Translations under genes and position numbers: made by a program
The notes under the pieces: generated by a model
Databases searched by the model: none
The model's input: only the letters and a program-made list of their open reading frames with translations
What the model was told of the DNA's origin: nothing
Shown: positions 7,708 through 64,000 of the stretch, one piece after another
How positions within the stretch are numbered: position 1 is the first letter of the stretch
How the letters are laid out: each line of letters starts with the position of its first letter
Assembly: GCF_000430645.1 (NCBI RefSeq)
Contig: NZ_AUMK01000010.1
Coordinates: forward strand, 62,001 to 126,000
Origin: Aquimarina latercula DSM 2041
GTDB lineage: Bacteria; Bacteroidota; Bacteroidia; Flavobacteriales; Flavobacteriaceae
Reading direction: 5' to 3'
Length of the DNA: 64,000 bases

Positions 7708-8598
7708 TTAGGTTTTAAGATCATCCCAATAGTCGTAGTAATTAAACCATTGCAAGGGATATTTATTAACCATAATCTCAGTATTTCTAACATACTCTTT
7801 TAAAACATGGCTAGGTTTGATAGATTGCTCTGTAAATTCTGGTTCACGAGCGTACAAATTATATTGTTTTTTAGCTCCTTTCATTATATACATAAAAAGA
7901 ATAGGCTTCTTTTTTCTCGCAGCTAACTTATACGGACCTGATGGAAACTTTACTGACTTACCAAAAAACTCATGTTCCAGAAATTGAATCCCTTCTACAT
8001 ATCTATCTGCAGCAAAAATTATCACCTCACCATTTGCTAGAACATCATTCATCTGAAAGATATGAGACATATCCTCCTTAATTACAATAAATTTCATACT
8101 AGTATCGTTAGACACAGCTCCAACATACTCCTTGATTTGTTCATTTTCTTGATCGGTAACCATTAGATTGACACCGGTATTAGTCATATCAAAATCATCA
8201 AAAAAATAACGTGCTATATTAAAACTTCCTACGTGAGCACTGAAGATAATTCCACCCTCACCTTTACTTAAGAGTGCTTGCATTTTTTCCCGACCATCGT
8301 GGGTGAAAGTGAATTTATTTTTTAGTCCAAAAGATATAGCTGTCCTATCGATAAGTGTTTGACCAAAAACTATATAATTTTTATACACACTGACAAAAGA
8401 CTTAAAGCGAGATTGCTTTAGTCTTTTATTATAGAAATAATAACTAGCTTTTGTAGTTGAATAGGAAAATATAACATAATACGCTGCTACAAATATTAGA
8501 ATTGAGTAAGCAGCATTTAATCCTAAATTCTTTATAAAGAAAATGAATATTTTATATCCTAAAGGCGTTCCTTTAGCTTTACCTTCCCATTGGGCCAT
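7708..8598 (-). CDS. LpxL/HtrB-like lysophospholipid acyltransferase family protein
   Basis: A 296-residue member of the lipid A acyltransferase-like family. There is a hydrophobic N-terminal segment (near residues 30-46) and an acyltransferase motif at SAHVGSFNIAR: His122 is the predicted base. The acidic partner of the HxxxxD/E motif is Asn127 here, which is unusual, so the catalytic mechanism is uncertain. In aryl polyene and flexirubin clusters a member of this family is thought to attach an acyl or polyene chain to a membrane acceptor. It follows the ACP gene by eight bases, which fits use of ACP-bound donors. The exact acceptor is unknown. Confidence 0.8.
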   Translation of the reverse strand: MAQWEGKAKGTPLGYKIFIFFIKNLGLNAAYSILIFVAAYYVIFSYSTTKASYYFYNKRLKQSRFKSFVSVYKNYIVFGQTLIDRTAISFGLKNKFTFTHDGREKMQALLSKGEGGIIFSAHVGSFNIARYFFDDFDMTNTGVNLMVTDQENEQIKEYVGAVSNDTSMKFIVIKEDMSHIFQMNDVLANGEVIIFAADRYVEGIQFLEHEFFGKSVKFPSGPYKLAARKKKPILFMYIMKGAKKQYNLYAREPEFTEQSIKPSHVLKEYVRNTEIMVNKYPLQWFNYYDYWDDLKT

Positions 8599-8606
8599 TA
8601 CTTCTT

Positions 8607-8855
8607 CTAAATATTGACTTTACGTTCTATCAAATCATAAAAATCTTGAAAACTTTCTACTCCAACAAAATCATCACCAACCAATTTCACTCCAAAAGTG
8701 GCTTCAATAGCTACAACAAGATCTACGTAATCTAAACTATCTAAATCTAATGTTTCTTTAAGGTTTGCTTCGGGAGCAATTTCATCCGCTTCTACCTCGA
8801 ATTCTTCTATCAAAAAGTCATCAACTTTTTCAACAATTACACTTGTTTCCATCAT
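8607..8855 (-). CDS. Acyl carrier protein
   Basis: An 82-residue acidic carrier protein. The phosphopantetheine attachment site is Ser40 in the motif LDLDSLDYVDLVVAIE, followed by the usual second and third helices. Two adjacent ATG codons begin the gene (MMETS); either may serve. The location between the FabF-like ketosynthase and the acyltransferase makes it the dedicated ACP on which the aryl polyene grows, activated by a phosphopantetheinyl transferase encoded elsewhere. The DSL motif, size and charge leave little doubt about the family. Confidence 0.95.
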   Translation of the reverse strand: MMETSVIVEKVDDFLIEEFEVEADEIAPEANLKETLDLDSLDYVDLVVAIEATFGVKLVGDDFVGVESFQDFYDLIERKVNI

Positions 8856-8878
8856 CTTTCTTGTAATTTTTTTCTATT

Positions 8879-10096
8879 CTAAATCTTTTTTATGACGATT
8901 GCAGAATTTGTGCCCCCAAACCCAAATGAATTCGACAAAAATACATCAATTTTTTTATCTACAGTTTCTTTTACCAAATTTAACTTTGACGAATCTTCAT
9001 CAGGAGACTCAAGGTTAATATTAGGCGCTATAAATGAATTGTTTAACATTATTAAAGAATAAACAATCTCACTTGCACCTGCCATCCAACACTCATGCCC
9101 AGTCATTGATTTTGTAGAACTCACATAAGGTCTTGATTCTCCAAAAACTTCATTAATCGCCTTTGCCTCATTTGCATCTCCTATAGGAGTAGATGTAGCA
9201 TGCGCATTAACATAATCAACATCTTCAGGTTTTACATTCGCCTGATCCACTGCTCGTTTCATAGCTCTAGCAGGTCCCTCTTGGTTTGGTGTAGAAATAT
9301 GATCTCCATTAGATGAAAAACCATAACCTACAACTTCTCCCAAAATAGTTGCCCCTCTTTTAACCGCACTTTCATAAGACTCCATAAACAAGGCAGCACC
9401 ACCGCCACTAGGCACTAATCCATCTCTTCCGCTATCAAAGGGTCTCGATGCTTTTGTTGGGTTTTCTTCATTCACAGAAAAAACTCCTAATCCATCAAAA
9501 CTACCAAAGGCGTAATCATTAATTTCTTGAGCACCTCCACACAACACATAATCCTGAAGCCCTTGCTTAATCAACAAATATCCCATTCCAACCGAGTGTG
9601 ATCCACTTGCGCAAGCAGCACTTATTGTAAAATTAACACCTTTCAGTTTAAAAACAGTTGAAAGATTCATTGTTACCGTAGAGTTCATAGACTTAAAAAC
9701 ACCTCCGGAACCTACTAAAGTAGTATCTTTCTTAATTCTTATCTTATCGATTGCTTGCATTACCGACTCTGCAGTGCTATCATTTCCAAATAGCACACCT
9801 ATTTCTTCATTGTCTAAGAACTCTTGATCTACACCTGCTTGATCAAATGCCTGTTTCGTAGCTATATAAGCATACTCAGACTCAGAACCAAAACTTACTC
9901 TTTGCCTTCTACTTAGCTCCTTTTTTAAATTAGGTTTAGGAACGGTTCCTGTCAAAGCTGATCTATAACCAAACTCTTTTCGAGATGGTTCATAAACAAT
10001 GCCAGACTTCCCTTGGTATAATGATTCTTTTACTTCTTCTACATTAGAACCAATACAAGAATATATTCCCATTCCAGTAATAACTACTCTACGCAT
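8879..10096 (-). CDS. Beta-ketoacyl-ACP synthase II-like enzyme (FabF family)
   Basis: A 405-residue condensing enzyme with a full KAS II triad: Cys162 in ISAACASGSH, His299 in NAHATSTPIGD and His334 in STKSMTGHE, plus the C-terminal NSFGFGGTN motif. Length and motifs are canonical, so this is likely the main chain-extending ketosynthase of the polyene. It stands nine bases after fabG and just before the ACP gene, giving an uninterrupted elongation set. A housekeeping fabF role is possible in principle, but the placement inside the pigment operon and the presence of further diverged ketosynthases argue for the pathway enzyme. Confidence 0.93.
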   Translation of the reverse strand: MRRVVITGMGIYSCIGSNVEEVKESLYQGKSGIVYEPSRKEFGYRSALTGTVPKPNLKKELSRRQRVSFGSESEYAYIATKQAFDQAGVDQEFLDNEEIGVLFGNDSTAESVMQAIDKIRIKKDTTLVGSGGVFKSMNSTVTMNLSTVFKLKGVNFTISAACASGSHSVGMGYLLIKQGLQDYVLCGGAQEINDYAFGSFDGLGVFSVNEENPTKASRPFDSGRDGLVPSGGGAALFMESYESAVKRGATILGEVVGYGFSSNGDHISTPNQEGPARAMKRAVDQANVKPEDVDYVNAHATSTPIGDANEAKAINEVFGESRPYVSSTKSMTGHECWMAGASEIVYSLIMLNNSFIAPNINLESPDEDSSKLNLVKETVDKKIDVFLSNSFGFGGTNSAIVIKKI

Positions 10097-10105
10097 ACTA
10101 ATTTC

Positions 10106-10837
10106 TTATGAATAAATTCCTCCATTAATATTCACAACTTCTCCAGTTATATATGAAGCCTTTTTGGAGGCTAAAAAAGATACTAAATCAGCGACCTCTT
10201 CTGCTTCCCCAAAACGATTCACCGGAATCATACGCTTTAATTCTTTTTCATCCATCTCCGCTGTCATATCCGTTTTTATAAAACCTGGTGCAACCGCATT
10301 TACCGTAATTTTCCTTTTTGCTACTTCTTGAGCCAACGCTTTTGTAGCGGCTACCAAAGCACCCTTGGCAGCAGAATAATTAGCTTGTCCAGGTGTTCCT
10401 TTTACTCCAGAAACAGATACAACATTTACAATACGACCATACCTATTAGTTAACATCTTTTGAATCAAGTGATTGGTTACATTATAAAAACCATTCAAAC
10501 TAATATTAAGAACATCATGCCAATCTTCTGGTTTCATCCACATAAATAATCCATCTCTTGTAATTCCCGCATTATTGATAATAATTTCAACAGTAGCATC
10601 TGGATTTTCAGCCATCCAATTATCTAAAACTTTATGTGTATCCTCCCTATCAGCTACATTAAATTTTAATAATGTACACTGCCCTCCTTCATCTTCAATA
10701 ATTTTTTTAGTTTCATTAGCAGCTGTATCATTAGACTGATAATTAATTAAAACAGGGTACTCCAAATCTTTAGCTAACTTAACAGCAATTGCTCTTCCTA
10801 TTCCTCTGGATCCACCAGTTACAAGGGCGTATTTCAT
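10106..10837 (-). CDS. fabG: 3-oxoacyl-ACP reductase, FabG-like SDR
   Basis: A 243-residue short-chain dehydrogenase that reduces 3-oxoacyl-ACP with NADPH. The Rossmann motif TGGSRGIG is at 7-14, NNAG at 88-91 and the catalytic Ser143, Tyr154 and Lys158 are in place (SVSGVKGTPGQANYSAAK). It is the first gene of the long minus-strand operon; the 140-bp gap upstream must hold the operon promoter after the terminator of the WG-repeat gene. Substrate specificity for the polyene chain is inferred from context; the family could not be clearer. Confidence 0.93.
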   Translation of the reverse strand: MKYALVTGGSRGIGRAIAVKLAKDLEYPVLINYQSNDTAANETKKIIEDEGGQCTLLKFNVADREDTHKVLDNWMAENPDATVEIIINNAGITRDGLFMWMKPEDWHDVLNISLNGFYNVTNHLIQKMLTNRYGRIVNVVSVSGVKGTPGQANYSAAKGALVAATKALAQEVAKRKITVNAVAPGFIKTDMTAEMDEKELKRMIPVNRFGEAEEVADLVSFLASKKASYITGEVVNINGGIYS

Positions 10838-10927
10838 TTACATCTTTTTTTTAAGATCAAATAATTATTGAACAATGTTTAAAACAACAATTATTCCAAA
10901 TTAAGATTTAATTAACAATATTAAAAG

Positions 10928-12120: not shown

Positions 12121-12215
12121 ATCTATATTTAAGGTTTATTTTTAGTACAAATAAAAAAGCATAGGTTAACATGCTTTCTTATATTAATAAATAAATTAAA
12201 TCTTAATCAAATAAT

Positions 12216-52897: not shown

Positions 52898-53785
52898 TTA
52901 AAAGGAGTTTTTATTCAAATCGCAGGATTCTTCTTCAAGTTCAGTTTCAATAGTATAATGATCAAAATGATATTCTTTCAAGATTCCCTTGACCTGTTTT
53001 TTAATCTCAATTATTTGGTCAAGATTTTCTATGTTTTTGAGCGTAATATGAGTGGTAAATACATGATGCTCACCTTCTAATGACCATAGATGAGTATGGT
53101 GTAAAGAAGCGACGTTTTCTATTGTAGATATTTTTGACTTTATTTCCTCTAAATTTAATCCCTTGGGAACCCCTTGCAAAAATAGGTAGAGTGTATCTCT
53201 CAAACGTTTTATTGCACCATAAAGAATGTAAAGTGAAATTAACAAAGAAAGTGCAGGATCGAGATAGTGTATATCTCTAATAGATAATATAATTGCTACA
53301 ATCAAAACTGCAACCCATCCAAGTACATCTTCAAGTAAATGCCAAGAGACTACTTTTTCATTTAATGATTTACCCTTACTGACTTTCCAAGCAGCGTATC
53401 CGTTTACCGTAATACCAATAATGGCAAAAATGATCATACCTTGCGCATCTGAATGTTCAGGTTTTAGAATTCTGCCTATTGCCTCATATATAACATAAAC
53501 CGACCCAACTATTAATACTACACTATTAATCAATGCCCCTAATAGTGAAAAGCGTTTATAGCCAAACGAGAACTTAGAGTCAGCATCCTTTTTTGATTTT
53601 ATGTCCAAATACCAAGATGTACCCAATGATAAGCTATCACCTAAGTCATGTATGGCATCAGATACAATCGCAATGCTATTTACATATAGTCCACCTATAA
53701 ATTCTAAAATTGTAAATCCAAGATTTAAGAAAAAGGCAATTTTTAAGTTTTTAGTAGATGTATGATGTTGATGATTATGCCCCAC
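52898..53785 (-). CDS. czcD: Cation diffusion facilitator (zinc transporter)
   Basis: A 295-residue CDF family antiporter that moves Zn2+ (and perhaps Cd, Co) out in exchange for protons. Six membrane segments; the zinc site residues are visible in SDAIHDLGDSL (TM2) and SWHLLEDVLGW (TM5), with a His-rich N-terminus (GHNHQHHTS). The C-terminal domain has the usual HHTHLWSLEGEHHVFTTHI. The start codon is GTG sharing one base with the DUF3703 stop (TAGTG). Thus it is coupled to DUF3703, mirroring the DUF3703-ATPase pair of the island. Confidence 0.92.
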   Translation of the reverse strand: MGHNHQHHTSTKNLKIAFFLNLGFTILEFIGGLYVNSIAIVSDAIHDLGDSLSLGTSWYLDIKSKKDADSKFSFGYKRFSLLGALINSVVLIVGSVYVIYEAIGRILKPEHSDAQGMIIFAIIGITVNGYAAWKVSKGKSLNEKVVSWHLLEDVLGWVAVLIVAIILSIRDIHYLDPALSLLISLYILYGAIKRLRDTLYLFLQGVPKGLNLEEIKSKISTIENVASLHHTHLWSLEGEHHVFTTHITLKNIENLDQIIEIKKQVKGILKEYHFDHYTIETELEEESCDLNKNSF

Positions 53786-54156
53786 TATCCTCTTTTATTT
53801 TTTTCTAAAATCAACTGTAAATCTTTCGGTAGTTCCATTTTTCTTAATGGAAGTACATTGCTTCCTCCTGTGTTTCCTAGTGGTACATGATCAATAAATG
53901 ATTTCCATCCGCCAACTAAAAGTCGAAGTATTTGCCCTAAAACTTCTTTAACATCCTTTTGGCGAAACCCAAACTTTAACATTAGCCAATGAGAATAACA
54001 ATGTTGTAAAGGATAAGATTGACCGAGAATATGAGAACGTTCCAAATGATACCAGGCCATTGACAAGTTTCCTTTTTGTAAATATGTCTGATAGTGTTCA
54101 AGTTCTATTAAATAACTTTCCTTAAGTACTGAGGGTATGATAGTATTGAATTTCAT
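53785..54156 (-). CDS. DUF3703 protein, second copy
   Basis: A 123-residue paralogue of the protein at 50044, with AWYHLERSHILGQSYPLQHCYSHWLMLKFGFRQKDVKEVLGQ (positions about 37-78) and GNTGGSNVLPLRKME near the end. The base composition is AT-rich, like its own cluster, so the two copies were not duplicated recently. It precedes the CDF gene with a one-base overlap and lies 40 bases after the TGCA operator. Its function is unknown. Confidence 0.8.
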   Translation of the reverse strand: MKFNTIIPSVLKESYLIELEHYQTYLQKGNLSMAWYHLERSHILGQSYPLQHCYSHWLMLKFGFRQKDVKEVLGQILRLLVGGWKSFIDHVPLGNTGGSNVLPLRKMELPKDLQLILEKNKRG

Positions 54157-54196
54157 AATGCTTTTATTTATGGATCTAAACTAGGTATTAAAAACG

Positions 54197-54213
54197 TGCA
54201 ACGGAAGTGCATT
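54197..54213 (-). promoter_or_regulatory. TGCA-N7-TGCA operator 6, before DUF3703/CDF
   Basis: Minus-strand AATGCACTTCCGTTGCA, the same 17-mer as operator 5, and again overlapping the stop codon of a Fur gene. The conservation of this spot at two separated Fur loci with diverged coding sequence points to selection on the site. Confidence 0.6.
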
Positions 54214-54629
54214 TAATTTCCACTACATTTATCGCATATCCCTTTTAAAACCAAATTAGCGTTTTCTGTAATAAAACCTTCCGGTAAGTTAATATGTGGA
54301 ATTTTATGAGATGTCAAACAAACAGTTTCATTACAGTTATTACAATGAAAATGTAAGTGCAAATCTCTCTCTAGCTCGCAATTACACCCTTCTTCACACA
54401 ATGCATATTTGGTAACGCCCGAACCGTCATCTATTTGATGAACCACTCCTTTTTGCTCAAAGGTTTTAAGAGTTCTATAGAGTGTTGTCCTATCTGCTTT
54501 TACGAAAGCATTTTCTACGTCCGTGAGAGTTTTGGCCACTTTTTCATTGGCGAGGTATTGAAAGACCAAAAGACGCATTGCAGTAGGTCGAACTCCTTTA
54601 TCTTCTAAAAACTTGTCTGATGATATCAT
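54213..54629 (-). CDS. Fur-family metalloregulator, AT-rich cluster
   Basis: A 138-residue Fur protein with ADRTTLYRTLKTFEQKGVVHQIDDGSG (about 45-71), HLHFHCNNCNETVCL and a C-terminal CDKCSGN. It is intact where the copy at 41782 has an amber codon, and shares the zinc motif with the copy at 49181. It stands between the TonB receptor gene and DUF3703/CDF. Repression of the zinc exporters through the TGCA operator that abuts its stop codon is a plausible model; it is inferred. Confidence 0.9.
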   Translation of the reverse strand: MISSDKFLEDKGVRPTAMRLLVFQYLANEKVAKTLTDVENAFVKADRTTLYRTLKTFEQKGVVHQIDDGSGVTKYALCEEGCNCELERDLHLHFHCNNCNETVCLTSHKIPHINLPEGFITENANLVLKGICDKCSGN

Positions 54630-54639
54630 TTCTTTCGTT

Positions 54640-56820
54640 TTAATGATTGTCTTCGTTTCCGAATGGTTTTAAAATAATTCCTAAACTAAAAATAAACCCA
54701 TCTGTTGGAGCATAGATTTCAGGAAACGTTGGACTCTCATGTGGAGGAAGTACCAATGGTGAAAAGCGACTTTGCCGTCTGTCTGTAAAATTCTCGAAAT
54801 TTACAAAAACACTTCCCCACTTAAAATTACGCATTCCAAGTAAACCCATAGTTACAAAATCGGTAGTCTCAACTCCATTGGAGAGAATTTGTTTTCCTGT
54901 ATAATAAGTTTCATACCCTATACGCCATTTTTCAGATTCATACATCAAGACACTACCAACGTTGTGTCGGGCTGTTAAAGGTTTCTGAGGATTACCAGGT
55001 AGATAATTTAGTCTTGTATCAATGAATGCATAATTCAAAAACCATCTAAAATCTTTATAGGTAAATTTTATATTGGTTTCTGTTCCTTTACTTAGAATTT
55101 CACCTGATGCATTTTCGAACTGAAAAAATTCATTGTCTACAGGATTTAAAAGTAATCCTTTATTAATGGCTGTTAGATAGAACAATTGATTGATTGAGAA
55201 GTTTACATTGTCAAATAATCGAGTTTGAAAGTTGAAATCCAAATTAAGACCATAAGAACGTTCCGCTTCAAGGGAATCTCTGTCTATCGGTAGTATATTT
55301 CTAAAATTGATAAATTCTGCTTCTTCAGTAAAGATATCTGGGATTTTATATCCCAAACCACCACCTAGCCTGCTTGAAAAACTACTATCGGATTTTAATA
55401 ATATTGAAACTCTTGGCAACGCAAAAAAGCCCCAATCCCTTGCATAATCCGTACGCAAACCTGTTTCTAGAATCCATTGATCGGAAATGTCATAAATATT
55501 GTTTGCAAACAATCCTACGGTAAGATCCTTCTGATCTCGATTTAACGGATTCTCCAGTTCATCAAATGATGTAGTATATAAGTTTGCTCCTAAAACCCAA
55601 TCAGTCTTTATTCCCTCCTTTTGATAAGTTGTTTCTGTAAATGTATTCCATTGTTTTCCTTTAAATAACAAATCTGGTATTTCTAAACTTCTATCAAAAA
55701 AAGCAATACTATTTTTTATGGAAACAGATCGAGTAGAATCAATTTGAGTATCATAAACAGCTTGAGTACTTACTCGTTTAGATAGGTTCTCTTCAGAATA
55801 CTGATGAATACCATTTTCGCCATCTTCTATTTTGGTAATATCTCCACCTATTCTATCATCATAAGTACCATTAATTCCAAACCAAATAGTAGTATTTTCT
55901 GAAGGGTAATAAAACAATTTAGGATTGAAACTTATGGACTGAGTTTGTGGTAAATTACTGAAACCATCATCTTCTGGATCATAAGCATTTTGATAATGTC
56001 CTGAACCATAAAGTGTCCATCCCCAATTATTTTTTCGCTCTGCATAAAAGATATTGGCAGTGCTACCAAGTGCCTGTGTTTGATTAAGCATTATATCAAG
56101 TTGTGGATCTTCTTCTGGGTTTTTAGAGACCATATTTACAAGTCCTGCTATGGCACCACCACCATAGAGGGTTGATGAACTTCCATTTATAATCTCGAAT
56201 TGTTTCAAGTCTAGTGGAGGAATTTGTAAAATGCTTAAACCACTGGAAAATCCACCATATAGAGGAAAACCATCTCGTAATAACTGTGTATAACGACCGT
56301 CTAAACCTTGTATTCGAATATTGGTATTGGCACTACTCAATGAAGTTTGTTGCATTTGAATACCCGTACTCTCGCGCAATACCATCGATATATTAGTAGG
56401 ATTCATTATGGCTTTTTCACTCAGTTCTTCAGCTCCGATAAATTCAATTCGGGTTGGTATTTTCTTTACGGTACGAGTGCTTCTGGTGGATTGTAAGAAA
56501 ACTTGATCTAAAGAATTCGCACTTTCTTTCAGATAGAACATTAGATTACCATTCATTGGAACTTTGATAGATGTTTTCAATGTCTGAAAACCTAAGAAGG
56601 ATATTTGTACATTATATTCACCATCTGGTAAATCTGTAAACTCAGCAATCCCATCAAAATTTGTGATCGAACCTCTATCTAAAGATTCAATATACACGGT
56701 CGCTCCCAACAAGGGTTCTTTTTCTTTTTCGGTTAAAATTTTTATTTCCAAGGTGTTTTGCGCAAAAGTGAATGCACCAAACAATAGTATAAACCAAAGG
56801 CTTATATAGTATTTGTTCAT
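54640..56820 (-). CDS. TonB-dependent receptor with CarboxypepD-like N-domain
   Basis: A 726-residue outer membrane receptor. A signal peptide (YYISLWFILLFGAFTFAQ), a carboxypeptidase-regulatory-like beta-sandwich (about 22-105), a plug (about 120-230; IQMQQTSLSSANTNIRIQGLDGRYTQLLRDG) and a 22-strand barrel that ends in Phe-containing C-terminal beta strands. It lies ten bases upstream of Fur and behind DUF6660, which favours uptake of a metal complex such as zinc or copper. The ligand is not readable from sequence. No SusD partner is nearby, so polysaccharide uptake is unlikely. Confidence 0.9.
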   Translation of the reverse strand: MNKYYISLWFILLFGAFTFAQNTLEIKILTEKEKEPLLGATVYIESLDRGSITNFDGIAEFTDLPDGEYNVQISFLGFQTLKTSIKVPMNGNLMFYLKESANSLDQVFLQSTRSTRTVKKIPTRIEFIGAEELSEKAIMNPTNISMVLRESTGIQMQQTSLSSANTNIRIQGLDGRYTQLLRDGFPLYGGFSSGLSILQIPPLDLKQFEIINGSSSTLYGGGAIAGLVNMVSKNPEEDPQLDIMLNQTQALGSTANIFYAERKNNWGWTLYGSGHYQNAYDPEDDGFSNLPQTQSISFNPKLFYYPSENTTIWFGINGTYDDRIGGDITKIEDGENGIHQYSEENLSKRVSTQAVYDTQIDSTRSVSIKNSIAFFDRSLEIPDLLFKGKQWNTFTETTYQKEGIKTDWVLGANLYTTSFDELENPLNRDQKDLTVGLFANNIYDISDQWILETGLRTDYARDWGFFALPRVSILLKSDSSFSSRLGGGLGYKIPDIFTEEAEFINFRNILPIDRDSLEAERSYGLNLDFNFQTRLFDNVNFSINQLFYLTAINKGLLLNPVDNEFFQFENASGEILSKGTETNIKFTYKDFRWFLNYAFIDTRLNYLPGNPQKPLTARHNVGSVLMYESEKWRIGYETYYTGKQILSNGVETTDFVTMGLLGMRNFKWGSVFVNFENFTDRRQSRFSPLVLPPHESPTFPEIYAPTDGFIFSLGIILKPFGNEDNH

Positions 56821-56877
56821 AATTAAGTTTGATAAATTGACTAAATGATATTGTGGGTGATATTATATCACTTGAAA

Positions 56878-57192
56878 TTAGCCAACTATCTTGGGGGGTT
56901 GAAAGAAACGAAAGGATACATCTTGCAAAAACCCTTGTTCTCTTGAAGAAACTTTTTTACTGATTACTACATAATCAATTTCATACCAAAAATGTTGCTC
57001 ATTGATAACATGTGTATGACAACAATGGCAATTACAGAATGGAGAACAAAACTCACAAGCATGATCGTGATTAGCATCAAAACTTTCTATGGACACATTT
57101 CCAGTTTCGTGATTGGTAAAGTCGATATCTCCACAAGGCACAAAATTAAGTGCCACAAAATACACAGACAATATGATCGCTAAATATTTCAC
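56878..57192 (-). CDS. DUF6660-like small periplasmic protein, second copy
   Basis: A 104-residue paralogue of the protein at 35194: signal segment (YLAIILSVYFVALNFVPCGD), then CEFCSPFCNCHCCHTH and a Pro-Pro end (FFQPPKIVG). I choose the GTG at 57192: it aligns with the start of the other copy and follows a TATCTTTG box by four bases, while the ATG 16 codons upstream lies before that promoter. It precedes the TonB receptor gene. The conserved nine Cys/His positions favour divalent metal binding. Confidence 0.75.
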   Translation of the reverse strand: MKYLAIILSVYFVALNFVPCGDIDFTNHETGNVSIESFDANHDHACEFCSPFCNCHCCHTHVINEQHFWYEIDYVVISKKVSSREQGFLQDVSFRFFQPPKIVG

Positions 57193-57196
57193 TTGG

Positions 57197-57204
57197 CAAA
57201 GATA
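57197..57204 (-). promoter_or_regulatory. -7 box of the second DUF6660 gene
   Basis: TATCTTTG on the minus strand, four bases before the GTG start. With AGTTGCA 12 bases upstream it is superposable on the promoter at 35182. Confidence 0.65.
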
Positions 57205-57216
57205 AAAAAATAGATG

Positions 57217-57233
57217 TGCAACTGAATTGCAAA
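57217..57233 (-). promoter_or_regulatory. TGCA-N7-TGCA operator 2, overlapping the second DUF6660 promoter
   Basis: Minus-strand TTTGCAATTCAGTTGCA. It aligns with operator 1 base for base in both half-sites and in CAG. The second half-site covers the -33 region of the promoter. Confidence 0.55.
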
Positions 57234-57256
57234 TGTTCATTCTATTTACAGATAAC

Positions 57257-57278
57257 TTTAGATTTCGTTTAGATTTAT
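57257..57278 (+). promoter_or_regulatory. Response-regulator box, autoregulatory (11-bp direct repeat)
   Basis: Two tandem 11-mers, TTTAGATTTCG and TTTAGATTTAT. The GA of the second lies exactly 11 bases before TAATTTTA at 57283-57290, a one-mismatch -7 box. The response-regulator gene starts 26 bases later, so the system would control its own promoter. Confidence 0.6.
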
Positions 57279-57315
57279 AACATAATTTTATAAATTAAGG
57301 TTTTAACTATTTTCT

Positions 57316-57990
57316 ATGAAAATTCTAGTAGCAGAAGATGAAATCGCACTTCAGGAGTCTATTGTCAAGTTTTTGAAACGTGACGGGAATGTATGTGAGA
57401 CGGCATCAGATTTTGATCAGGCAATGTATAAAGTATCACTGTACGAATACGATATCATACTTTTAGATATCAATTTGATTACAGGCAGTGGTATTGATGT
57501 CTTAAAAGAAGTCAAAGGTAATGGCAAGAAAACTGGAGTTATTATTATTTCAGCAAATAACTCTTTGGATGACAAGCTTGAAGGACTTGATTTAGGTGCA
57601 GATGATTATCTTACCAAACCTTTTCACTTACCGGAGTTAAATGCTAGAATAAAAGCAGTTTTGCGACGAGGAAAATACGATGGAGATTCGTATCTTACGT
57701 ACAATGAAATAAAGGTAGATACAGAGGCAAAACAAGCCTATGTCAACGGAAGTACTATGCAGTTAACCAAAAAGGAATATGATCTATTAGTTTATTTTAT
57801 GGTTAACAAAAATCGGGTATTATCCAAAGAGATCATAGCCGAACATCTCTGGGGTGATCATATTGATTTAGTTGATAATTTTGATTTCATATATGTACAT
57901 ATCAATAACCTTAGAAAAAAACTAACTAAAGTTGCTGCAGACTATATAAAAACAGTCTATGGTATTGGGTATAGATTTACTGATGAATAA
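57316..57990 (+). CDS. OmpR-family response regulator
   Basis: A 224-residue two-component regulator. The receiver domain (1-120) has acidic residues Glu7/Asp8, phospho-acceptor Asp51 (LLDINL) and Lys in TKPF (near 101). A winged-helix DNA-binding domain (Trans_reg_C, about 130-222) ends in GIGYRFTDE. This type binds direct repeats about 11 bp apart, which is what stands upstream of this gene and of several nearby genes. It is four bases from its histidine kinase. CusR/RprY-type responses to metal or envelope stress are possible; the regulon found here favours the envelope. Confidence 0.93.
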   Translation: MKILVAEDEIALQESIVKFLKRDGNVCETASDFDQAMYKVSLYEYDIILLDINLITGSGIDVLKEVKGNGKKTGVIIISANNSLDDKLEGLDLGADDYLTKPFHLPELNARIKAVLRRGKYDGDSYLTYNEIKVDTEAKQAYVNGSTMQLTKKEYDLLVYFMVNKNRVLSKEIIAEHLWGDHIDLVDNFDFIYVHINNLRKKLTKVAADYIKTVYGIGYRFTDE

Positions 57991-57992
57991 TA

Positions 57993-59255
57993 ATGAGTAC
58001 TGAGAAAAAAAAGATTAAATTAATTACCAAGACATCCAAAAGCTTCCTGATCTCAGGAATAGTTTTAATGTCTTTAAGCATGGTGGCATTATATTTTGTA
58101 ACCAATTTCTTTATTCGAGATGAAACTGATGAAGGGCTGGAGTCTACATTATACCGTATTGAACAAGCATTGGAAAAAGATCAAAATATCAATTCGCTTG
58201 AGCCATTAATCACCGTACAGAATACAGAAGAATTAGGCAAAACCGTTTTAAAGGATACTTTGATTTTTGATCCTGCCCAAAATGAAGAGGAATTATTTCG
58301 TGAAATTTCATCCTACAAAAAGGTACACAATAAAAATTATAAAATATCTGTAAGAACTCTAGTTGTGGAATCTGATGATATTATTCTGGCGATTTTGATA
58401 GCATACCTCAGTATTATCTTTCTGGTTTTTTTAACCCAATTTTATTATAACCGGATCAATTCAAAAATTATCTGGAAACCTTTCTTTAAAAACATCAAGA
58501 AAATACAGCAATTCTCGCTCCAATCAGATCAAGAAATTGTGTTAGAAGACACTGATATACTAGAGTTTTCTGAATTGAATAATGAAATAAAATCACTTAC
58601 CACTAAAGTAGTTACGGACTATAGAAACTTAAAACAATTTACAGAAGATGTTTCTCACGAGATTCAAACACCTTTGGCTATTGCGCAGGCCAAGGTAGGA
58701 AATCTTATAGATGAAGATGGGATAAGTGATAAACAGTTTCAGTTGCTTACCGAAGTGCAACAAAACATACAACGATTGGCTAATCTAAACAAAAGACTCG
58801 TATTACTTACTAAAATTGAAAATCAGCAATTTGATTACAACCAAAAAATAAATATAACCGAAAGTCTAAAGTCATCTATTAGCAATTTAAAAGAGATTAG
58901 CGATATCCCTATTGAAAGTAATGGATTAAAGGATCTAAACATTTTATTAGACGAAAATTTGGCGGGAATTCTTACCGATAATCTTCTTTCTAACGCTATT
59001 AAATACACTCCAAAAACTGGAAAGATTTTTATACGCACAGACAAAAAGTCTTTTACTGTTTCAAATAGTGGAAAAGATGCTATTAAGGAACCCCATAAAT
59101 TATACAACAGATTTTATACTGAAAACAAATCGAAAAAATCTTTGGGCTTGGGATTAGCTATTGTTAAAAAGATATGTGACGAATATGATTTTAATATAGA
59201 GTACTCATTTAAAGATCAGCATCATAATTTTACGATACACTTTCCAGCTGCTTAG
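57993..59255 (+). CDS. Sensor histidine kinase
   Basis: A 420-residue kinase partner of the response regulator. Two membrane segments (about 19-40 and 129-150) surround a periplasmic domain of about 90 residues. A dimerisation domain with phospho-acceptor His222 (DVSHEIQTPLAIAQAK) follows, then a HATPase domain with LTDNLLSNAIKYTPKTGK and a shortened G-box (GLGLAIVKKI). The signal is unknown; the small periplasmic domain has no recognised ligand fold. The last 26 bases overlap the convergent epimerase gene. Confidence 0.92.
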   Translation: MSTEKKKIKLITKTSKSFLISGIVLMSLSMVALYFVTNFFIRDETDEGLESTLYRIEQALEKDQNINSLEPLITVQNTEELGKTVLKDTLIFDPAQNEEELFREISSYKKVHNKNYKISVRTLVVESDDIILAILIAYLSIIFLVFLTQFYYNRINSKIIWKPFFKNIKKIQQFSLQSDQEIVLEDTDILEFSELNNEIKSLTTKVVTDYRNLKQFTEDVSHEIQTPLAIAQAKVGNLIDEDGISDKQFQLLTEVQQNIQRLANLNKRLVLLTKIENQQFDYNQKINITESLKSSISNLKEISDIPIESNGLKDLNILLDENLAGILTDNLLSNAIKYTPKTGKIFIRTDKKSFTVSNSGKDAIKEPHKLYNRFYTENKSKKSLGLGLAIVKKICDEYDFNIEYSFKDQHHNFTIHFPAA

Positions 59256-60189
59256 CATTTTTTTTGAACCATAGAATTTGTTCAGAAACGCCTTCTTCTA
59301 AAGTAATTGAAGGATTATACCCTAAAAGTTTCCTAGCCTTATCAATATTGGCATTAGTCCTTTTTTGATCTCCTATTCGCTTAGGCAGCATATCAAACTG
59401 GATCTTGGTTTTTAGTAATCGTTCAACAGTCTGTATACCTTCTTTGGTAGTATATTCTGCTTCTGTTCCAATATTAAAAATTTCACCATTACAAATATCT
59501 TCTTTACCAATAACAGAAACTACTCCATCCACTATGTCTTTAATATGAGTAAAACTTCTTAAATGCTGTAAACTACCATCAAAAAGAGGGAATTTCTTAT
59601 TGTGCATACCACAATCAATTAATTTGGTAAACAATTTATCTGGCCGTTCTCTTGATCCATAAACGGAAAACAGGCGTAATGAGCAAGCATTTAATAAACT
59701 TGTTCTTTGTTTAGACATCACTAGTTGTTCTGCTGCTAATTTAGTCACTCCATAATACGAAAACGGCTGGGGAATTTTGTTTTCAGTGCATGTTATCATC
59801 TTACCATACACAGAAGAGGAACTAATATTAACGAACATTTTTGGTTTTGTAAACTGTAATACATACTCTAATAGATTTTGTGTTCCCGTGATGTTATTAG
59901 TTAGGTAATCATCAAAGGTTGATGTTTTAGATATACCAGATTGTGCGGCAAAATGGAACACATAATCGATATCTACAGGCAATGAATTTACAATATGACC
60001 AATACGTAAATCCTGTTCAACGATTTGAATTCCCTTAAGGGATAATTCATCGGCATTTTTCCTTTTTAAAGAAGCATCATAATAATTAGAGAAATTATCA
60101 ATACCAATAACATCATGATTAAGTTCATTAAGTCTTTCTGCTACATGAGACCCTATAAACCCTGCAATTCCTGTAACCAAAATCTTCAT
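59230..60189 (-). CDS. NAD-dependent sugar-nucleotide epimerase/dehydratase
   Basis: A 319-residue extended SDR enzyme of the UDP-glucose/UDP-glucuronate epimerase group. Its NAD site is GIAGFIGSHVAERL (7-20), the catalytic Tyr and Lys are in YYGVTKLAAEQ (about 144-154) with Ser at NISSSSVYG (about 122), and the substrate region carries RLFSVYGSRERPD. It would make an activated sugar for the cell envelope. It overlaps the histidine kinase gene by 26 bases at the 3' ends. The exact sugar (glucose, glucuronate or another) cannot be determined by eye. Confidence 0.88.
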   Translation of the reverse strand: MKILVTGIAGFIGSHVAERLNELNHDVIGIDNFSNYYDASLKRKNADELSLKGIQIVEQDLRIGHIVNSLPVDIDYVFHFAAQSGISKTSTFDDYLTNNITGTQNLLEYVLQFTKPKMFVNISSSSVYGKMITCTENKIPQPFSYYGVTKLAAEQLVMSKQRTSLLNACSLRLFSVYGSRERPDKLFTKLIDCGMHNKKFPLFDGSLQHLRSFTHIKDIVDGVVSVIGKEDICNGEIFNIGTEAEYTTKEGIQTVERLLKTKIQFDMLPKRIGDQKRTNANIDKARKLLGYNPSITLEEGVSEQILWFKKNAKQLESVS

Positions 60190-60319
60190 TTATTTTAGGT
60201 ATTTATGCTTTTTCATTAAATATAAACCTTTATCAGATAGGAAGATTCGTTAATAGTCGAATATATGACTAACATATAAGGCTTCTAGTAAATGTTCGCT
60301 TTTTCTATAAAAATTAATT

Positions 60320-61393
60320 CTAAACTTGAACTGGGTATTCTTTTCCCGAAACTAAAATAAGATTGATTTTATCATAATAAGTATCCATGTTCTTTTTATT
60401 TGTAACGAATCCAAAGCTTTTTAATGTATTATAAGGTTCGTATTTTTCTTTTGCTGTTCCAGAAAACAAACCAATTGTTGGAGTATTGGTAGCACTCGCT
60501 AAATGCATAACTCCGCAATCCGCACTAATATGTAAATCTGTGTTTTCTATAACAGCTGCCATTTCCCTTATATCTTTGCTATAATACGTTGGAGCCGTGA
60601 AATTAATTTGCGATGTGTTCTCTATAGGAAGAATTTCTACAATATTATGATCAGGATATTTATGGAGTAATTCTGTATATCTCTCTTTCCACCATGCAAC
60701 TGAGTATTTTTTATCGCCTGTAGCATTGGTAAATATGGCAATAGTTTTTCTATTAACATCTATAATTTGGTTAAGAACTTCTTTCCCTTTTTTAATTTCT
60801 TGTTCTGTGAGCTTTATATCTAAACCAGGAATCTTCTTTTTTGATTTTGTATCACTTGTCTTTGTGAAATAATATCTAAAAAGATATACTGGTGTTTTAC
60901 CAAGATGCTTAAAATCTTCTGGAAAAGATTCTATTTTTTCTGGAGCATCAAATATCTTATATTTTCCGTTAGCGAGAAGGGTTAGAATTTTTCCCGAGGA
61001 AGATCCAATTTCTGCGTTAATCACCAAATCATATTTTCTAAAGCTTACCGATAAAAATATTTTTATATAAGTAAACAAGTTTTTAAATGGTTTTCTAGGA
61101 AGTTTAATAATTGTATTTACATTATTATAATTTTTAAATATTTTATCGGCCATATTCCCCTTAACTACCAAATCTATTTCACAATTCGGATAAACATCAA
61201 TAACTTCCTGAACTATCGGTGTAACCAATAAAAGATTTCCTAATCGACTGTTAGGTCTGCATATAAGAACCTTGTTGATATTAATATTTTCAGGATTTAC
61301 TAATAGTTTTTTTTGATATTTCCTCCCTATTTGCCTTGTTAGTAATGGCATGAGTTTTTTTCTTAATTTGTTTAGGAATGGTAATATGTTCAT
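60320..61393 (-). CDS. Glycosyltransferase family 9 (heptosyltransferase-like)
   Basis: A 357-residue GT9 enzyme for the lipopolysaccharide core. The Rossmann start is INKVLICRPNSRLGNLLLVTPIVQEVIDVYP (about 38-68) and the donor-binding C-terminal region has the conserved HISADCGVMHLASATNTPTIGLFSG (about 283-307), with the Asp/Ser-rich motif of ADP-heptose transferases. The transferred sugar is unknown. Its promoter carries three tandem 11-bp repeats of the response regulator. A 130-bp gap separates it from the epimerase gene and shows no strong feature. Confidence 0.88.
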   Translation of the reverse strand: MNILPFLNKLRKKLMPLLTRQIGRKYQKKLLVNPENININKVLICRPNSRLGNLLLVTPIVQEVIDVYPNCEIDLVVKGNMADKIFKNYNNVNTIIKLPRKPFKNLFTYIKIFLSVSFRKYDLVINAEIGSSSGKILTLLANGKYKIFDAPEKIESFPEDFKHLGKTPVYLFRYYFTKTSDTKSKKKIPGLDIKLTEQEIKKGKEVLNQIIDVNRKTIAIFTNATGDKKYSVAWWKERYTELLHKYPDHNIVEILPIENTSQINFTAPTYYSKDIREMAAVIENTDLHISADCGVMHLASATNTPTIGLFSGTAKEKYEPYNTLKSFGFVTNKKNMDTYYDKINLILVSGKEYPVQV

Positions 61394-61430
61394 GATTAAA
61401 TTAATTTATATAACCACAAACTAGTAAGTG

Positions 61431-61463
61431 ATTCTAAAGAGAATCTAAAGGAAATCTTAAGAT
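61431..61463 (-). promoter_or_regulatory. Response-regulator box before the GT9 gene (three 11-bp repeats)
   Basis: Minus-strand units CTTAAGATTTC, CTTTAGATTCT and CTTTAGAATCA in tandem, then TAGTTTG (61423-61417) 11 bases after the GA of the last unit. The gene starts 24 bases further on. Confidence 0.65.
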
Positions 61464-61513
61464 GTTCATAGAATCAAAAACACCTTAAAATTAATTCATT
61501 ACATTTAAAAGAA

Positions 61514-61558
61514 TTTAGATTTACTTTAAAATGCCTTAAGATTTCCCCTTTAGTTTTG
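61514..61558 (+). promoter_or_regulatory. Response-regulator box before the PepSY-like gene
   Basis: In register: TTTAGATTTAC (61514), TTTAAAATGCC (61525) and TTAAGATTTCC (61536). TAGTTTTG, a perfect TAnnTTTG, is at 61551-61558, exactly 11 bases after the GA of the last unit. The gene start is at 61586. Confidence 0.65.
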
Positions 61559-61585
61559 AGGTATTAATTTAAACACTTGTCATAA

Positions 61586-62029
61586 ATGAAAAAAATAGTA
61601 CTTATTACATCATTAGTAACAGCTATCAGTTCGGTAAGCTGCCATACTAAAGTAGTTGTTCCTGCTAAAGTGAAAGACACATTTGCTCAAAGGTTTCCTG
61701 ACGTTAAACCAATATTATGGGAAAAAGAAGATGAAAAAGAATGGGAAGTTAATTTCAAAATAGATGGAGTTAAACATTCTGCCAATTTTCTAGAGGATGG
61801 AACCTGGAAAGAAACTGAATATGAAATTTCTAAAAAGGATCTTCCAGAATTTATTCTACAATCATTGAAAGCAAACTTCGAGGATTTTGAAATTGAAGAA
61901 GTTGAAATCTCAGAAACCAAAACGGGCAAAGCTTACGAAATCGAAATCGAAGTTGGAGAAGAGAAATTAGAAGTTTTATTGGATATGAAGGGTACTATTA
62001 TTAAAAAAGAAGTGAAAGAAGATGATTAA
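61586..62029 (+). CDS. PepSY-like periplasmic lipoprotein
   Basis: A 147-residue protein with a signal sequence whose Cys19 (ISSVSCHTK) makes a plausible lipobox. Two PepSY-like repeats follow: VKDTFAQRFPDVKPILWEKEDEKEWEVNF (about 28-56) and LPEFILQSLKANFEDFEIEEVEISETKTGKAYEIEIEV (about 85-122). This group (PF11396) is common in Bacteroidetes and often sits next to OmpR-type two-component genes, perhaps as a periplasmic inhibitor or sensor accessory. It is controlled, by prediction, through the 11-bp repeats just upstream. Function is not established. Confidence 0.82.
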   Translation: MKKIVLITSLVTAISSVSCHTKVVVPAKVKDTFAQRFPDVKPILWEKEDEKEWEVNFKIDGVKHSANFLEDGTWKETEYEISKKDLPEFILQSLKANFEDFEIEEVEISETKTGKAYEIEIEVGEEKLEVLLDMKGTIIKKEVKEDD

Positions 62030-62033
62030 TAAA

Positions 62034-62696
62034 TTACTCCCTATAAATGCGATAGTTTTTGGGATTTATAAAAATGAGGAAAAAAATTAAAGCAAAACAA
62101 AATTCATATACTTCCCACTTTCTATCCGCCTGTATGATAACTATGGTAAGAGTTGCTATCACAAATGCCAAGGTATGGTGATATCTTGGTAAAGGAATCG
62201 CAAATAAGTTAATTTTATCTTTAATCCATAAAGACTTCTTATACAAAAAAGGAAAAATCAATAGATAAATAGTTAGTATCAATATAATAAGTTTGCCAAA
62301 AATATGCTTATTAACACTCACATCACCAACCATAAGATTATGCAAATTTGTTTCTTTTTGCTTATTGTTTTGATTGAAAAAATCTCCCGACTTTAAATCA
62401 AATAATCGTTGCCCCCAAGAAATTTCTTCTCCTGCAGCGAATAAAAATAAAATTGCTAGTCCAACAACTCCTAAAAACCAATATATCCTTTTGTTCTTAT
62501 ATTCCTTTAAGAAGACAAACCATAAATATATAGAGGAACAGCCCAATAAAATAGTTGTTCCCCATTCTATAAATCCGTCTTCGGCGGCGAAAACACCATT
62601 AAAGTACATTTTATCACTTATCGACAGGTATAAGCTTATAGATAGAATTACTACCAAAAAAAGGTACCCAATATATTCCTTACGTTTTAAATTCAT
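62034..62696 (-). CDS. Multi-pass membrane protein, unknown function
   Basis: A 220-residue integral membrane protein with about six hydrophobic segments. A conserved motif AAGEEISWGQRLFDLKSGDFF lies near residues 84-105, the mark of an uncharacterised family that I know only by this motif. The acidic GEE and Trp could form an active site facing the periplasm. It converges with the PepSY-like gene (four bases apart) and follows the PAP2 gene by 15 bases, so it probably shares that promoter. Envelope lipid remodelling is a possible role. Confidence 0.7.
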   Translation of the reverse strand: MNLKRKEYIGYLFLVVILSISLYLSISDKMYFNGVFAAEDGFIEWGTTILLGCSSIYLWFVFLKEYKNKRIYWFLGVVGLAILFLFAAGEEISWGQRLFDLKSGDFFNQNNKQKETNLHNLMVGDVSVNKHIFGKLIILILTIYLLIFPFLYKKSLWIKDKINLFAIPLPRYHHTLAFVIATLTIVIIQADRKWEVYEFCFALIFFLIFINPKNYRIYRE

Positions 62697-62711
62697 AGTA
62701 ATGATGTTAAT

Positions 62712-63455
62712 TTAGAATTTCATTGCAAAATATACTCCATAATTCCCGTTTTCAATTCTAGGAATTAGGCTGATTCTATCCTTAGAATTCTTAAATGGAT
62801 TCCATTTAATTATAGGATCAAAATAATAAATTAATTCTGTGATCAATATTCCTATTCCCGCACTCATCATTACATCAGATAACCAATGGGCATTGTTCAC
62901 CATTCTAAATGTACCTGTAGTAATGGCAAAACCAAAACCACTGTAAGCCAATAATGGACTTGTGTCTTTAAATTCTTGGTATAATAATCCTGCTCCGGTA
63001 AAAGGAAGAGATGTGTGCCCGGATGGAAATGATTCGTAATCATCACTGCCATTCGGTCTTCTTTTCTTTATCAGTCTTTTGAGTCTAGTTGTAACGAAAT
63101 CATTTACTACTACGGCAATGGCAAGATTTTTTGTTTGATCAAACCAATGATTTTTAGCTTTGACTCCAAAAATATCAGCTCCATACATTTGAACAAAGGG
63201 TACATATCTTGTATAATCATCTATATTATTGTAATAATCGTTTCCAACTTGATTTCTTAAATCTCTTTGTAAATCCTTTTCAAAATCACTACCACTTATT
63301 AAAGCGCTCCAGAGCATAATAGATGCTGGTAATGTTAAACGTTTAACAAGTTTGTTCTCTGTTTTCTTCTTTTTAGGTATGCTAAAATTCTGAGAATTTC
63401 CGAAGGTGAATGACAACAATAAAACTATACCTACCAATACTTTTTTATAATCCAT
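62712..63455 (-). CDS. PAP2-family phosphatase
   Basis: A 247-residue secreted or membrane-anchored phosphatidic-acid-phosphatase-type enzyme with a signal peptide (KVLVGIVLLLSFTFGNSQ). The three motifs are in order: KRLIKKRRPNG (about 129-139), ESFPSGHTSLPF (about 145-156) and FRMVNNAHWLSDV (about 187-199); the catalytic histidines are those in PSGH and in AHWLSD. The SR of the third motif is FR here. It would dephosphorylate a lipid phosphate such as undecaprenyl diphosphate or lipid A. Four tandem response-regulator repeats stand upstream. Confidence 0.9.
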   Translation of the reverse strand: MDYKKVLVGIVLLLSFTFGNSQNFSIPKKKKTENKLVKRLTLPASIMLWSALISGSDFEKDLQRDLRNQVGNDYYNNIDDYTRYVPFVQMYGADIFGVKAKNHWFDQTKNLAIAVVVNDFVTTRLKRLIKKRRPNGSDDYESFPSGHTSLPFTGAGLLYQEFKDTSPLLAYSGFGFAITTGTFRMVNNAHWLSDVMMSAGIGILITELIYYFDPIIKWNPFKNSKDRISLIPRIENGNYGVYFAMKF

Positions 63456-63483
63456 AATGTTTTTTGTTTCAAACTATTATGGA

Positions 63484-63526
63484 ATTCTAAAGTTGATCTT
63501 TAGAAAATCTAAAGGAAATCTTAATT
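63484..63526 (-). promoter_or_regulatory. Response-regulator box before the PAP2 gene (four 11-bp repeats)
   Basis: Minus-strand units ATTAAGATTTC, CTTTAGATTTT, CTAAAGATCAA and CTTTAGAATTC. TAGTTTG (63476-63470) begins exactly 11 bases after the GA of the last unit, the same distance as at the GT9 promoter. Confidence 0.65.
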
Positions 63527-63575
63527 TCAGAAATTAGGTGGGTCTAAATATTATAATTTCTTATTGATTACATTC

Positions 63576-63597
63576 TTTAAAATTGCTTTAGATTTCA
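63576..63597 (+). promoter_or_regulatory. Weak response-regulator-like box before the LptF/G gene
   Basis: TTTAAAATTGC and TTTAGATTTCA in tandem, 80 bases before the start codon. There is no -7 box at the distance seen at the other four promoters, so this is a doubtful member. Confidence 0.3.
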
Positions 63598-63677
63598 TTG
63601 ATATTTTTAGTTTTTATTAGACATTAACAGTTAGTGATCCAGTTTGGTTTTAATACTAGCATCTTTATCAGGTAAGA

Positions 63678-64000
63678 ATGAAAATATTAGATTGGTATAT
63701 CTTAAAAAGGTATTTAGGAACATTTCTAGTTATGTTGTCACTATTCATTCCCATTGGTATTATAGTTGATCTTGCGGATCATATTGATAATATTATTAAA
63801 AATAAGGCACCTCTTTCTGCGGTAATACAATTCTATTTGGATTTCATAATTTACTTTGCAAATCTTTTATTTCCCTTATTTCTATTTTTATCTGTTATAT
63901 GGTTTACTTCTAAGCTTGCCAATAAAACTGAAATAATAGCCATATTATCTTCAGGAGTTTCCTTTTGGCGTTTTCTAAGACCATACATTATTGGTGCAAC
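63678..64000 (+). CDS. lptG: LptF/LptG-family permease, 5' part
   Basis: The first 107 codons of a membrane permease cut by the window edge. It begins MKILDWYILKRYLGTFLVML, the usual start of YjgP/YjgQ permeases in Bacteroidetes, and already shows three membrane segments (near 14-32, 52-68 and 76-92). The Lpt complex extracts lipopolysaccharide from the inner membrane and moves it towards the outer membrane. The paralogues LptF and LptG cannot be told apart from this fragment, so the symbol is tentative. It adjoins the lipid-related genes of the 11-bp-repeat regulon. Confidence 0.85.
   Translation, partial: MKILDWYILKRYLGTFLVMLSLFIPIGIIVDLADHIDNIIKNKAPLSAVIQFYLDFIIYFANLLFPLFLFLSVIWFTSKLANKTEIIAILSSGVSFWRFLRPYIIGA

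Follow-up and report, generated by a model that had tools for sequence, protein, structure and literature searches.

Near the end of a 64-kb stretch of the 6.25-Mb genome of Aquimarina latercula DSM 2041 (G000:C7:62001-126000; the whole stretch analysed, hereafter the window), a response regulator gene and an adjoining sensor histidine kinase gene lie among envelope genes, and at least five promoters there carry direct repeats of 11-bp period just upstream of a -7 box (Table 1). With a receiver domain and an OmpR-type winged helix (Trans_reg_C), both assigned by Pfam, the regulator belongs to the OmpR/PhoB family, as an earlier first-pass annotation of the sequence had recognized. Judged from sequence, it is probable that the phosphorylated regulator binds these repeats as a head-to-tail dimer and turns on its own operon together with envelope genes, in a manner resembling PmrAB.

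Table 1. Genes, operators and boxes of the regulator cluster, with tandem operators found in other genomes. Positions are those of the window unless a locus is named; aa, amino acids.
Feature	Position	Strand	Details
Operator (2 units) and -7 box before response regulator gene	57256..57290	+	CTTTAGATTTC GTTTAGATTTA TAACA TAATTTTA; 25 nt upstream of ATG 57316; matrix score 28.9
Response regulator, receiver and OmpR-type winged helix, 224 aa	57316..57990	+	PF00072, 87 bits; PF00486, 75 bits
Sensor histidine kinase, 420 aa	57993..59255	+	NCBIfam PorY family NF052314, 403 bits against a cut-off of 350
NAD-dependent sugar-nucleotide epimerase/dehydratase	59230..60189	-	Below every equivalog cut-off
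Glycosyltransferase family 9 (GT9) protein	60320..61393	-	Pfam PF01075; below every equivalog cut-off
Operator (3 units) and box before GT9 gene	61416..61461	-	CTTAAGATTTC CTTTAGATTCT CTTTAGAATCA CTTAC TAGTTTGT; matrix hit 61450 minus, score 30.1
Operator (3 units) and box before PepSY-like gene	61513..61558	+	Matrix hit 61524 plus, score 25.2
PepSY-like protein, 147 aa	61586..62029	+	Pfam PF11396; lipoprotein signal likely, judged by eye
Membrane-type protein, 220 aa	62034..62696	-	No Pfam family; downstream of PAP2 gene, same strand
PAP2-family protein, 247 aa	62712..63455	-	Pfam PF01569
Operator (4 units) and box before PAP2 gene	63469..63525	-	Matrix hit 63503 minus, score 19.9; 20.2 with the stricter matrix
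Fifth operator and box, before LptF/LptG gene	63575..63609	+	CTTTAAAATTG CTTTAGATTTC ATTGA TATTTTTA; matrix score 28.1; zero-mismatch pattern match
LptF/LptG-family permease	63678..64000 in window	+	Pfam PF03739; full gene 358 aa, L010:7179-8255, crosses window end
Tandem operators before gyrB	L227:945 and 1166 (= L209:12345 and 12566); L217:2956 and 2732		

The first-pass annotation had reported that four genes (those for the regulator, the GT9 protein, the PepSY-like protein and the PAP2 protein) are preceded by tandem CTTTAGATTTN units repeated every 11 bp, and had placed the GA of the last unit 11 bases before a TAnnTTTG-like box in each. Both observations were reproduced: the repeats are present at all four promoters, and the box T stands exactly 11 bases from the last unit's G in every case, as it does at four additional sites found here. 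The unit is better given as CTTWAGAWTNN, with CTTAAG and CTTTAG alternating, and the middle unit of the PepSY operator is degenerate (CTTTAAAATGC). All four boxes (TAATTTTA, TAGTTTGT, TAGTTTTG and TAGTTTGA) resemble TAnnTTTG, the full consensus not being present in every one. The list of four promoters was correct as far as it went, but it overlooked the fifth operator, before the LptF/LptG gene, and sites just past the window end. According to the available portion of PMC7366714, the promoter consensus of Bacteroidota consists of a -7 TAnnTTTG and a TTTG near -33.

Sites were scored with a 35-position matrix built from aligned promoters of orthologous regulator genes in other genomes, this genome contributing only the seed that anchored the alignment. 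Because the row from locus L190 in the first, 22-row matrix was a background stretch, the matrix was rebuilt with 20 rows. On both strands of the window, the first matrix gave five sites scoring 19.9 to 30.1, with the sixth best at 7.6 and a maximum of 16.9 over 20 dinucleotide shuffles; the stricter matrix gave 20.2 to 30.2, with the sixth at 7.1, and four of the five sites outscored every one of 300 mononucleotide shuffles, the highest of which reached 20.3. Furthermore, 456,882 bases of 25 loci yielded 95 raw hits scoring at least 15 (21 of them training promoters), and one shuffle yielded none. Equal frequency of the motif in random intergenic sequence, which the first-pass annotation had offered as grounds for abandoning its proposal, is not what was found, the window sites standing far above the sixth best and the shuffles, with the PAP2 site marginal.

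Among 140 relatives, 5 encode a regulator of at least 62% identity, and among 397 members of the family 22 do so (this genome counted in both); named organisms with close homologues include Zobellia, Maribacter, Arenibacter and Algibacter. We examined 24 orthologous regulators from 23 genomes, 23 of the regulators being outside this genome, and they form one clade with support of 100/99 in a tree computed without L120, whose reading frame could not be recovered. An operator matching at least 17 of 21 seed positions precedes 21 of the 23 orthologous regulator genes outside this genome, lying 50 to 56 nt from the ATG in 20 of the 21 and 39 nt from it in one; the score of the weakest of them, 17, was reached by 14 of 1200 mononucleotide-shuffled upstream regions. 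The operator is thus conserved across genera at orthologous promoters, where the first-pass annotation had taken its absence as a second reason for rejection. Moreover, when the best 9-base self-match was sought at lags of 4 to 30 with no motif model, lag 11 alone stood out, with a z of 6.1 for 23 orthologues (next best 1.9) and of 4.9 for a further 14, less closely related, regulators (next best 1.8). A close orthologue in genome G241 (G241:C21:21609-22274; locus L205) was not counted among the 24 because one in-frame TAG leaves it no full open reading frame (ORF); its locus was scanned, the nearby PepSY gene keeps its operator (L205:11593), and the genome is among the 28 described below.

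The whole-genome scan proposed in the first-pass annotation returned a local cluster in this genome and, in 28 genomes searched for pattern and box together with up to two mismatches, 114 matches as against 2 for the reversed pattern. These genomes comprise 22 with a close orthologue (one having the in-frame stop) and six without; 90 of the matches fall in the 22 close-orthologue genomes and 23 in four genomes of a group whose regulators share 56 to 58% identity. Not included were G021 and G161, nor G453 and G270 of that group. With a looser pattern, again with up to two mismatches, the five carriers among the 140 relatives gave 24 matches versus 2 for controls, and the zero-mismatch matches, among the matches listed, occur in four of the five carriers, no more than 7 kb from the regulator gene. 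A protein scan of genome contigs, whose best 80 rows are all at 55% identity or less, was of use chiefly for loci L013-L024. A motif confined to this genome is ruled out by its occurrence in the loci of others.

Because the seed that anchored the 21 training regulator promoters includes the box, counts are also given without them. When two units were searched without the box in the 25 loci, 98 sites were obtained, and 57 of these have TAnnTTT at one distance, where about 0.4 would be expected per distance; with the training promoters left out, the figure is 40 of 77 unit pairs (fewer than 1 expected), with at most 2 at any other distance. One shuffle of the 25 loci held 5 unit pairs. All but one of the 92 full sites, 71 of which are non-training, lie outside ORFs of at least 100 aa (first 15 codons disregarded), in loci of which coding sequence makes up 85%. 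The presence of more than two units is general only in part: a third unit (at least 7 of 9 positions, a level reached by 0.026 of random 9-mers) is found at 19 of the 92 sites and at 4 of the 7 in this genome. A second TAnnTTT 14 bases further on occurs at 8 of the 98 sites (7 of the 21 training regulator promoters; 1 of the 77 sites without them), and in regulator promoters a second start or an AT-rich leader are candidates for its origin. Chance repeats in AT-rich DNA are ruled out by the lag, matrix, shuffle and phase tests.

The operators continue beyond the window. In the next 6 kb (locus L010, to which the following positions refer), a four-unit array with sites at 8328 (19.7) and 8339 (18.3) precedes a PAP2 ORF (8430-9308) that overlaps an eptA ORF (9265-10785), whose product passes the EptA equivalog NF007160 with 699.1 bits against a cut-off of 561; the EptA of locus L125 scores 681.8. 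A site at 12151 (17.7) precedes a further PAP2 gene, and a weak site at 10861 (14.4) precedes an HD-domain gene, behind which lies a PAP2 gene. The weak site gains support because relatives of the HD gene (52% and 49% identity) in loci L229 and L230 directly follow PAP2 genes that have strong operators. With up to two mismatches allowed, CTTWAGATTNNCTTTAGATTN matches the genome at nine places; seven of these, including all five with at most one mismatch, lie in C7:119-131 kb. A two-mismatch match at G000:C1:618505-618539 has near-identical copies in several genus mates and is probably another conserved element, not this operator.

Target genes were assigned, by comparison with representatives, to 89 of the 92 sites, the other three having no downstream gene in reach; the labels LpxE-, LtaS- and ArnC-like denote matches below curated cut-offs. 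The direct downstream gene encodes the regulator at 22 sites, a PepSY-like protein, an LpxE-like PAP2 protein or a TonB receptor at 10 each, a 658-aa LtaS-like transferase or a TolC-type protein at 8 each, another PAP2 protein at 5, a PhoX-like protein, an ArnC-like glycosyltransferase or a DUF347 protein at 2 each, and GT9, LptF/G, EptA or the epimerase at 1 each, with 6 unassigned. EptA-kind transferases release diacylglycerol. A diacylglycerol kinase-family gene stands behind the LtaS-like gene in both loci checked (L229 and L230), and in Enterobacteriaceae, according to the available part of PMC7559476, dgkA and the PAP2 gene ybjG share the regulation of eptA. Because the targets cohere in this way, with LtaS-like transferase plus diacylglycerol kinase, EptA and PAP2 proteins, we read the output as outer-membrane phosphate and charge remodelling, and the inclusion of EptA points to modification of lipid A or lipopolysaccharide (LPS) phosphates more specifically. 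The envelope genes named in the first-pass annotation hold their place in a regulon that is larger than it described and here includes EptA; its mention of core-sugar transfer is unproven, the GT9 protein reaching no heptosyltransferase cut-off.

It is possible, if unlikely, that the regulon is real and that its output is uptake and efflux of metal or siderophore type, not lipid A modification. TonB receptors (10 of 89 sites) and TolC-type outer membrane proteins (8 of 89) point in this direction, with an HlyD-type gene behind one TolC gene and an AcrB-type gene behind another, as do the Fur-family and cation-efflux genes near the regulator in the window and the iron-responsive PepSY-like loci of Bacteroides described in the available text of PMC10434189. 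However, PAP2, LtaS-like, EptA and ArnC-like genes together are commoner (26 of 89 sites). The two outputs are compatible, since PmrA too answers iron (PMC7559476, in its available part).

Under the favoured reading, lipid A remodelling by a PmrAB-like activator, a dimer of the phosphorylated regulator would bind two units head to tail, adjoining the -7 box, and would recruit polymerase, to its own operon first and to the envelope genes next. The two units would occupy the stretch from about -38 to -17, in which a -33 element would lie, and this is also where activators such as PhoB and PmrA bind. Where promoters have extra units, a second dimer would be added. The phosphate and charge of lipid A/LPS would then be remodelled via EptA, PAP2 phosphatases, LtaS-like and ArnC-like transferases, a lipid kinase and the Lpt permease, and the inducing signal may, at a guess, be a cationic peptide, a metal or another envelope stress.

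On this evidence, a PmrA-like operator and target set appear to be combined with a PorY-family kinase and a promoter of Bacteroidota type, in a circuit that is PmrAB-like in its working and outside the PmrA family by cut-off. Among the 25 NCBIfam models listed, the regulator reaches no cut-off: it falls short of the PmrA equivalog NF007928 (166.2 bits vs 330) and of the PhoB equivalogs TIGR02154 (168.3 vs 296.2) and NF053854 (Bacteroidetes PhoB; 155.8 vs 270), and membership of CtrA, QseB or CopR was likewise rejected by cut-off. By score, its structure hits are DrrD (1kgs), then RegX3, with BasR (8jo2 and 4s04), another name for PmrA, third and fourth; in the alignment, a recognition-helix core VHI-NLR-K is common to the regulator and 8jo2. 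The PmrA box is given in the available text of PMC10927774 as TTTAAG-N5-TTTAAG in Acinetobacter and as a YTTAAK repeat in Salmonella. Like PmrAB as represented there, the present system joins an OmpR-family regulator to 6-bp half-sites, almost alike in sequence, with an 11-bp period, CTTWAG-N5-CTTWAG conforming to a PmrA-type operator, and the combination of the own operon and eptA (the latter in 2 of 25 loci) under the operator conforms to a PmrA-type regulon, in which the own operon and eptA/pmrC are targets. In contrast to PmrAB, the commoner form CTTTAG departs from TTAA at its fourth base, and the system has a PorY-family kinase, a Bacteroidota -7 box and PepSY, TonB receptor, LtaS-like and LptF/G targets.

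The first-pass annotation knew of no described operator of such form in Bacteroidetes; we found no description of the operator or regulon in Bacteroidota in the literature searched (titles and abstracts, with few subscription papers covered), but outside the phylum the PmrA box of Gammaproteobacteria is a precedent. The Pho box, too, consists of two 11-bp direct repeats where an upstream promoter element would lie. The operator shares this arrangement and place with PhoB, whereas its half-site is another and its regulator lies under the PhoB cut-offs. Membership of the kinase in the NCBIfam PorY family, which eight of eight other kinases tested beside such regulators also pass (NF052314), recalls PorXY of Porphyromonas gingivalis. 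There, the genes for PorX and PorY lie at separate places and the system is reported to lack autoregulation (PMC8050853, available part), whereas here the kinase adjoins an OmpR-type regulator whose gene is preceded by an operator. The PorXY system itself was rejected: the adjacent 224-aa protein has an OmpR-type DNA-binding domain and is not PorX, with its C-terminal alkaline-phosphatase-like domain. Finally, the lpxE-eptA operon of Capnocytophaga canimorsus, whose products alter the 1-phosphate of lipid A and increase resistance to polymyxin B, is likewise a pair of overlapping phosphatase and EptA genes in Flavobacteriaceae, as are the PAP2 and eptA ORFs of L010; the available part of PMC4730577 does not name its regulator. 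The PAP2 partner here differs in giving no match to the LpxE model at 1e-3.

Several observations qualify or weigh against the favoured reading. The PAP2 site of the window (20.2) is marginal on its own score because the highest mononucleotide shuffle reaches 20.3; the array there comprises four units, and in L229 a site scoring 23.7 belongs to a PAP2 gene with 57% identity. Two of the 23 orthologous regulator genes, those of L190 and L197, have no operator before them, and in the 56 to 58% group it is missing before the regulator gene, with some sites preceding gyrB and unknown genes. The looser pattern is unspecific, 63 genus mates without a close orthologue giving 106 matches versus 33 for controls, partly from an unrelated conserved element and CTACAG variants. 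Seven of the nine genome matches, and six of seven among the matches listed in a second pattern search, lie within 12 kb in this genome, so the regulon is local here, not global. EptA stands under the operator in just 2 of 25 loci, here through the PAP2-eptA pair and directly in L125. DrrD, the top structure hit, has HI-NLRKK at the same place in the helix, which makes the likeness to BasR there weak evidence. Lastly, sequence cannot tell activation from repression.

The regulator might bind the repeats as a repressor, covering the promoter and being released upon phosphorylation, and the position of the units, immediately upstream of the -7 box, is one where a bound protein could exclude polymerase. 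We consider this improbable, since the consensus of the 92 sites lacks a TTTG some 20 bp upstream of the box, so that the promoters are likely weak unaided, and since OmpR-type proteins that occupy 11-bp repeats in this position usually activate, PhoB and PmrA being examples. That the motif belongs to some other transcription factor or an alternative sigma factor, with the kinase-regulator pair merely one target, is very improbable: regulator binding is argued from sequence and the sister group has the operator before genes other than the regulator, but one genome after another has its sites clustered round the regulator gene, direct repeats of 11 bp are the form used by the OmpR family, the genes of less related regulators are themselves preceded by 11-bp repeats that differ in sequence (z 5.7, n = 38), and, unlike a sigma element, the motif varies in unit number and adjoins a box resembling the ordinary Bacteroidota -7 element. 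An autoregulated OmpR-type envelope regulon, as the first-pass annotation proposed, is thus supported by the 21 of 23 promoters, the fixed phase, the 91 of 92 sites outside genes and the recurrent targets.

Among neighbouring genes, the GT9 gene and the epimerase gene downstream of it on the same strand likely form one operon, and a relative of the epimerase (60% identity) stands under its own operator in L125. The 220-aa membrane-type protein is possibly in the regulon because its gene lies behind the PAP2 gene on the same strand. Beside the regulator, a metal-type cluster (window 52898-57240, minus strand) comprises a Cation_efflux gene, a FUR-family regulator (Pfam), a TonB receptor and a DUF6660 gene. 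The DUF6660 ORF starts at 57240, divergent from the operator at 57256, which could act on it too.

The repeats extend to less related regulators. For 38 of these from Bacteroidota (including the 14 above; nine near-identical or repeated upstream regions were removed beforehand and L120-L122 left out), lag 11 is again the peak, with a z of 5.7 and the next at 2.3, and about half have no convincing repeat by eye. Their units differ, being TTCCCAATT or TTTCAGAAT where the helix has Q (IYxQIKNLRK) and CTACAGATT in the vicinity of regulators that have YSHLKNLRK; regulators having H at the helix position occur with CTTTAG-like as well as TTCAAAATT units. Near sister regulators in the same genus (L098:470 minus and L101:1430 minus), variant operators such as CTACAGATTTT CTACAGAATCT CACAA TATGTTTA keep the layout with another half-site. 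In L016 (Bacteroidales, regulator of 55% identity), back-to-back CTTTAG operators at 2928 minus and 2960 plus stand on either side of a divergent promoter, left of the regulator gene, and in the 56 to 58% group the operator is found behind the kinase gene and elsewhere. Two genomes of that group have two tandem full operators before gyrB, the nearer of which is separated from it by about 270 nt, perhaps with a small unannotated gene in between. Together, these sequences suggest that the layout is old and that the half-site drifts with the regulator. Bacteroidota may have a PmrAB-like circuit of their own, a proposal that we regard as evenly balanced, in which a PorY-family kinase and its OmpR-type partner would set outer-membrane charge via a phylum-wide promoter code of fixed form, in which two 11-bp units, followed after 5 bp by TAnnTTTG, take the place of the -33 element, with a half-site (CTTWAG here; CTACAG, TTCCCA or TTTCAG in sisters) drifting with the recognition helix.

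In the literature searched (titles and abstracts), we found no description of how lipid A phosphate modification is controlled in Bacteroidota, a modification that, according to the available part of PMC4730577, determines the polymyxin resistance of Capnocytophaga. With an operator that can be read and a promoter phase that is fixed, the regulon of this regulator family becomes predictable from sequence, and the PorY-family kinases described here gain a likely cognate regulator and target set. The system would also represent a case in which a PmrA-like half-site serves a different promoter system.

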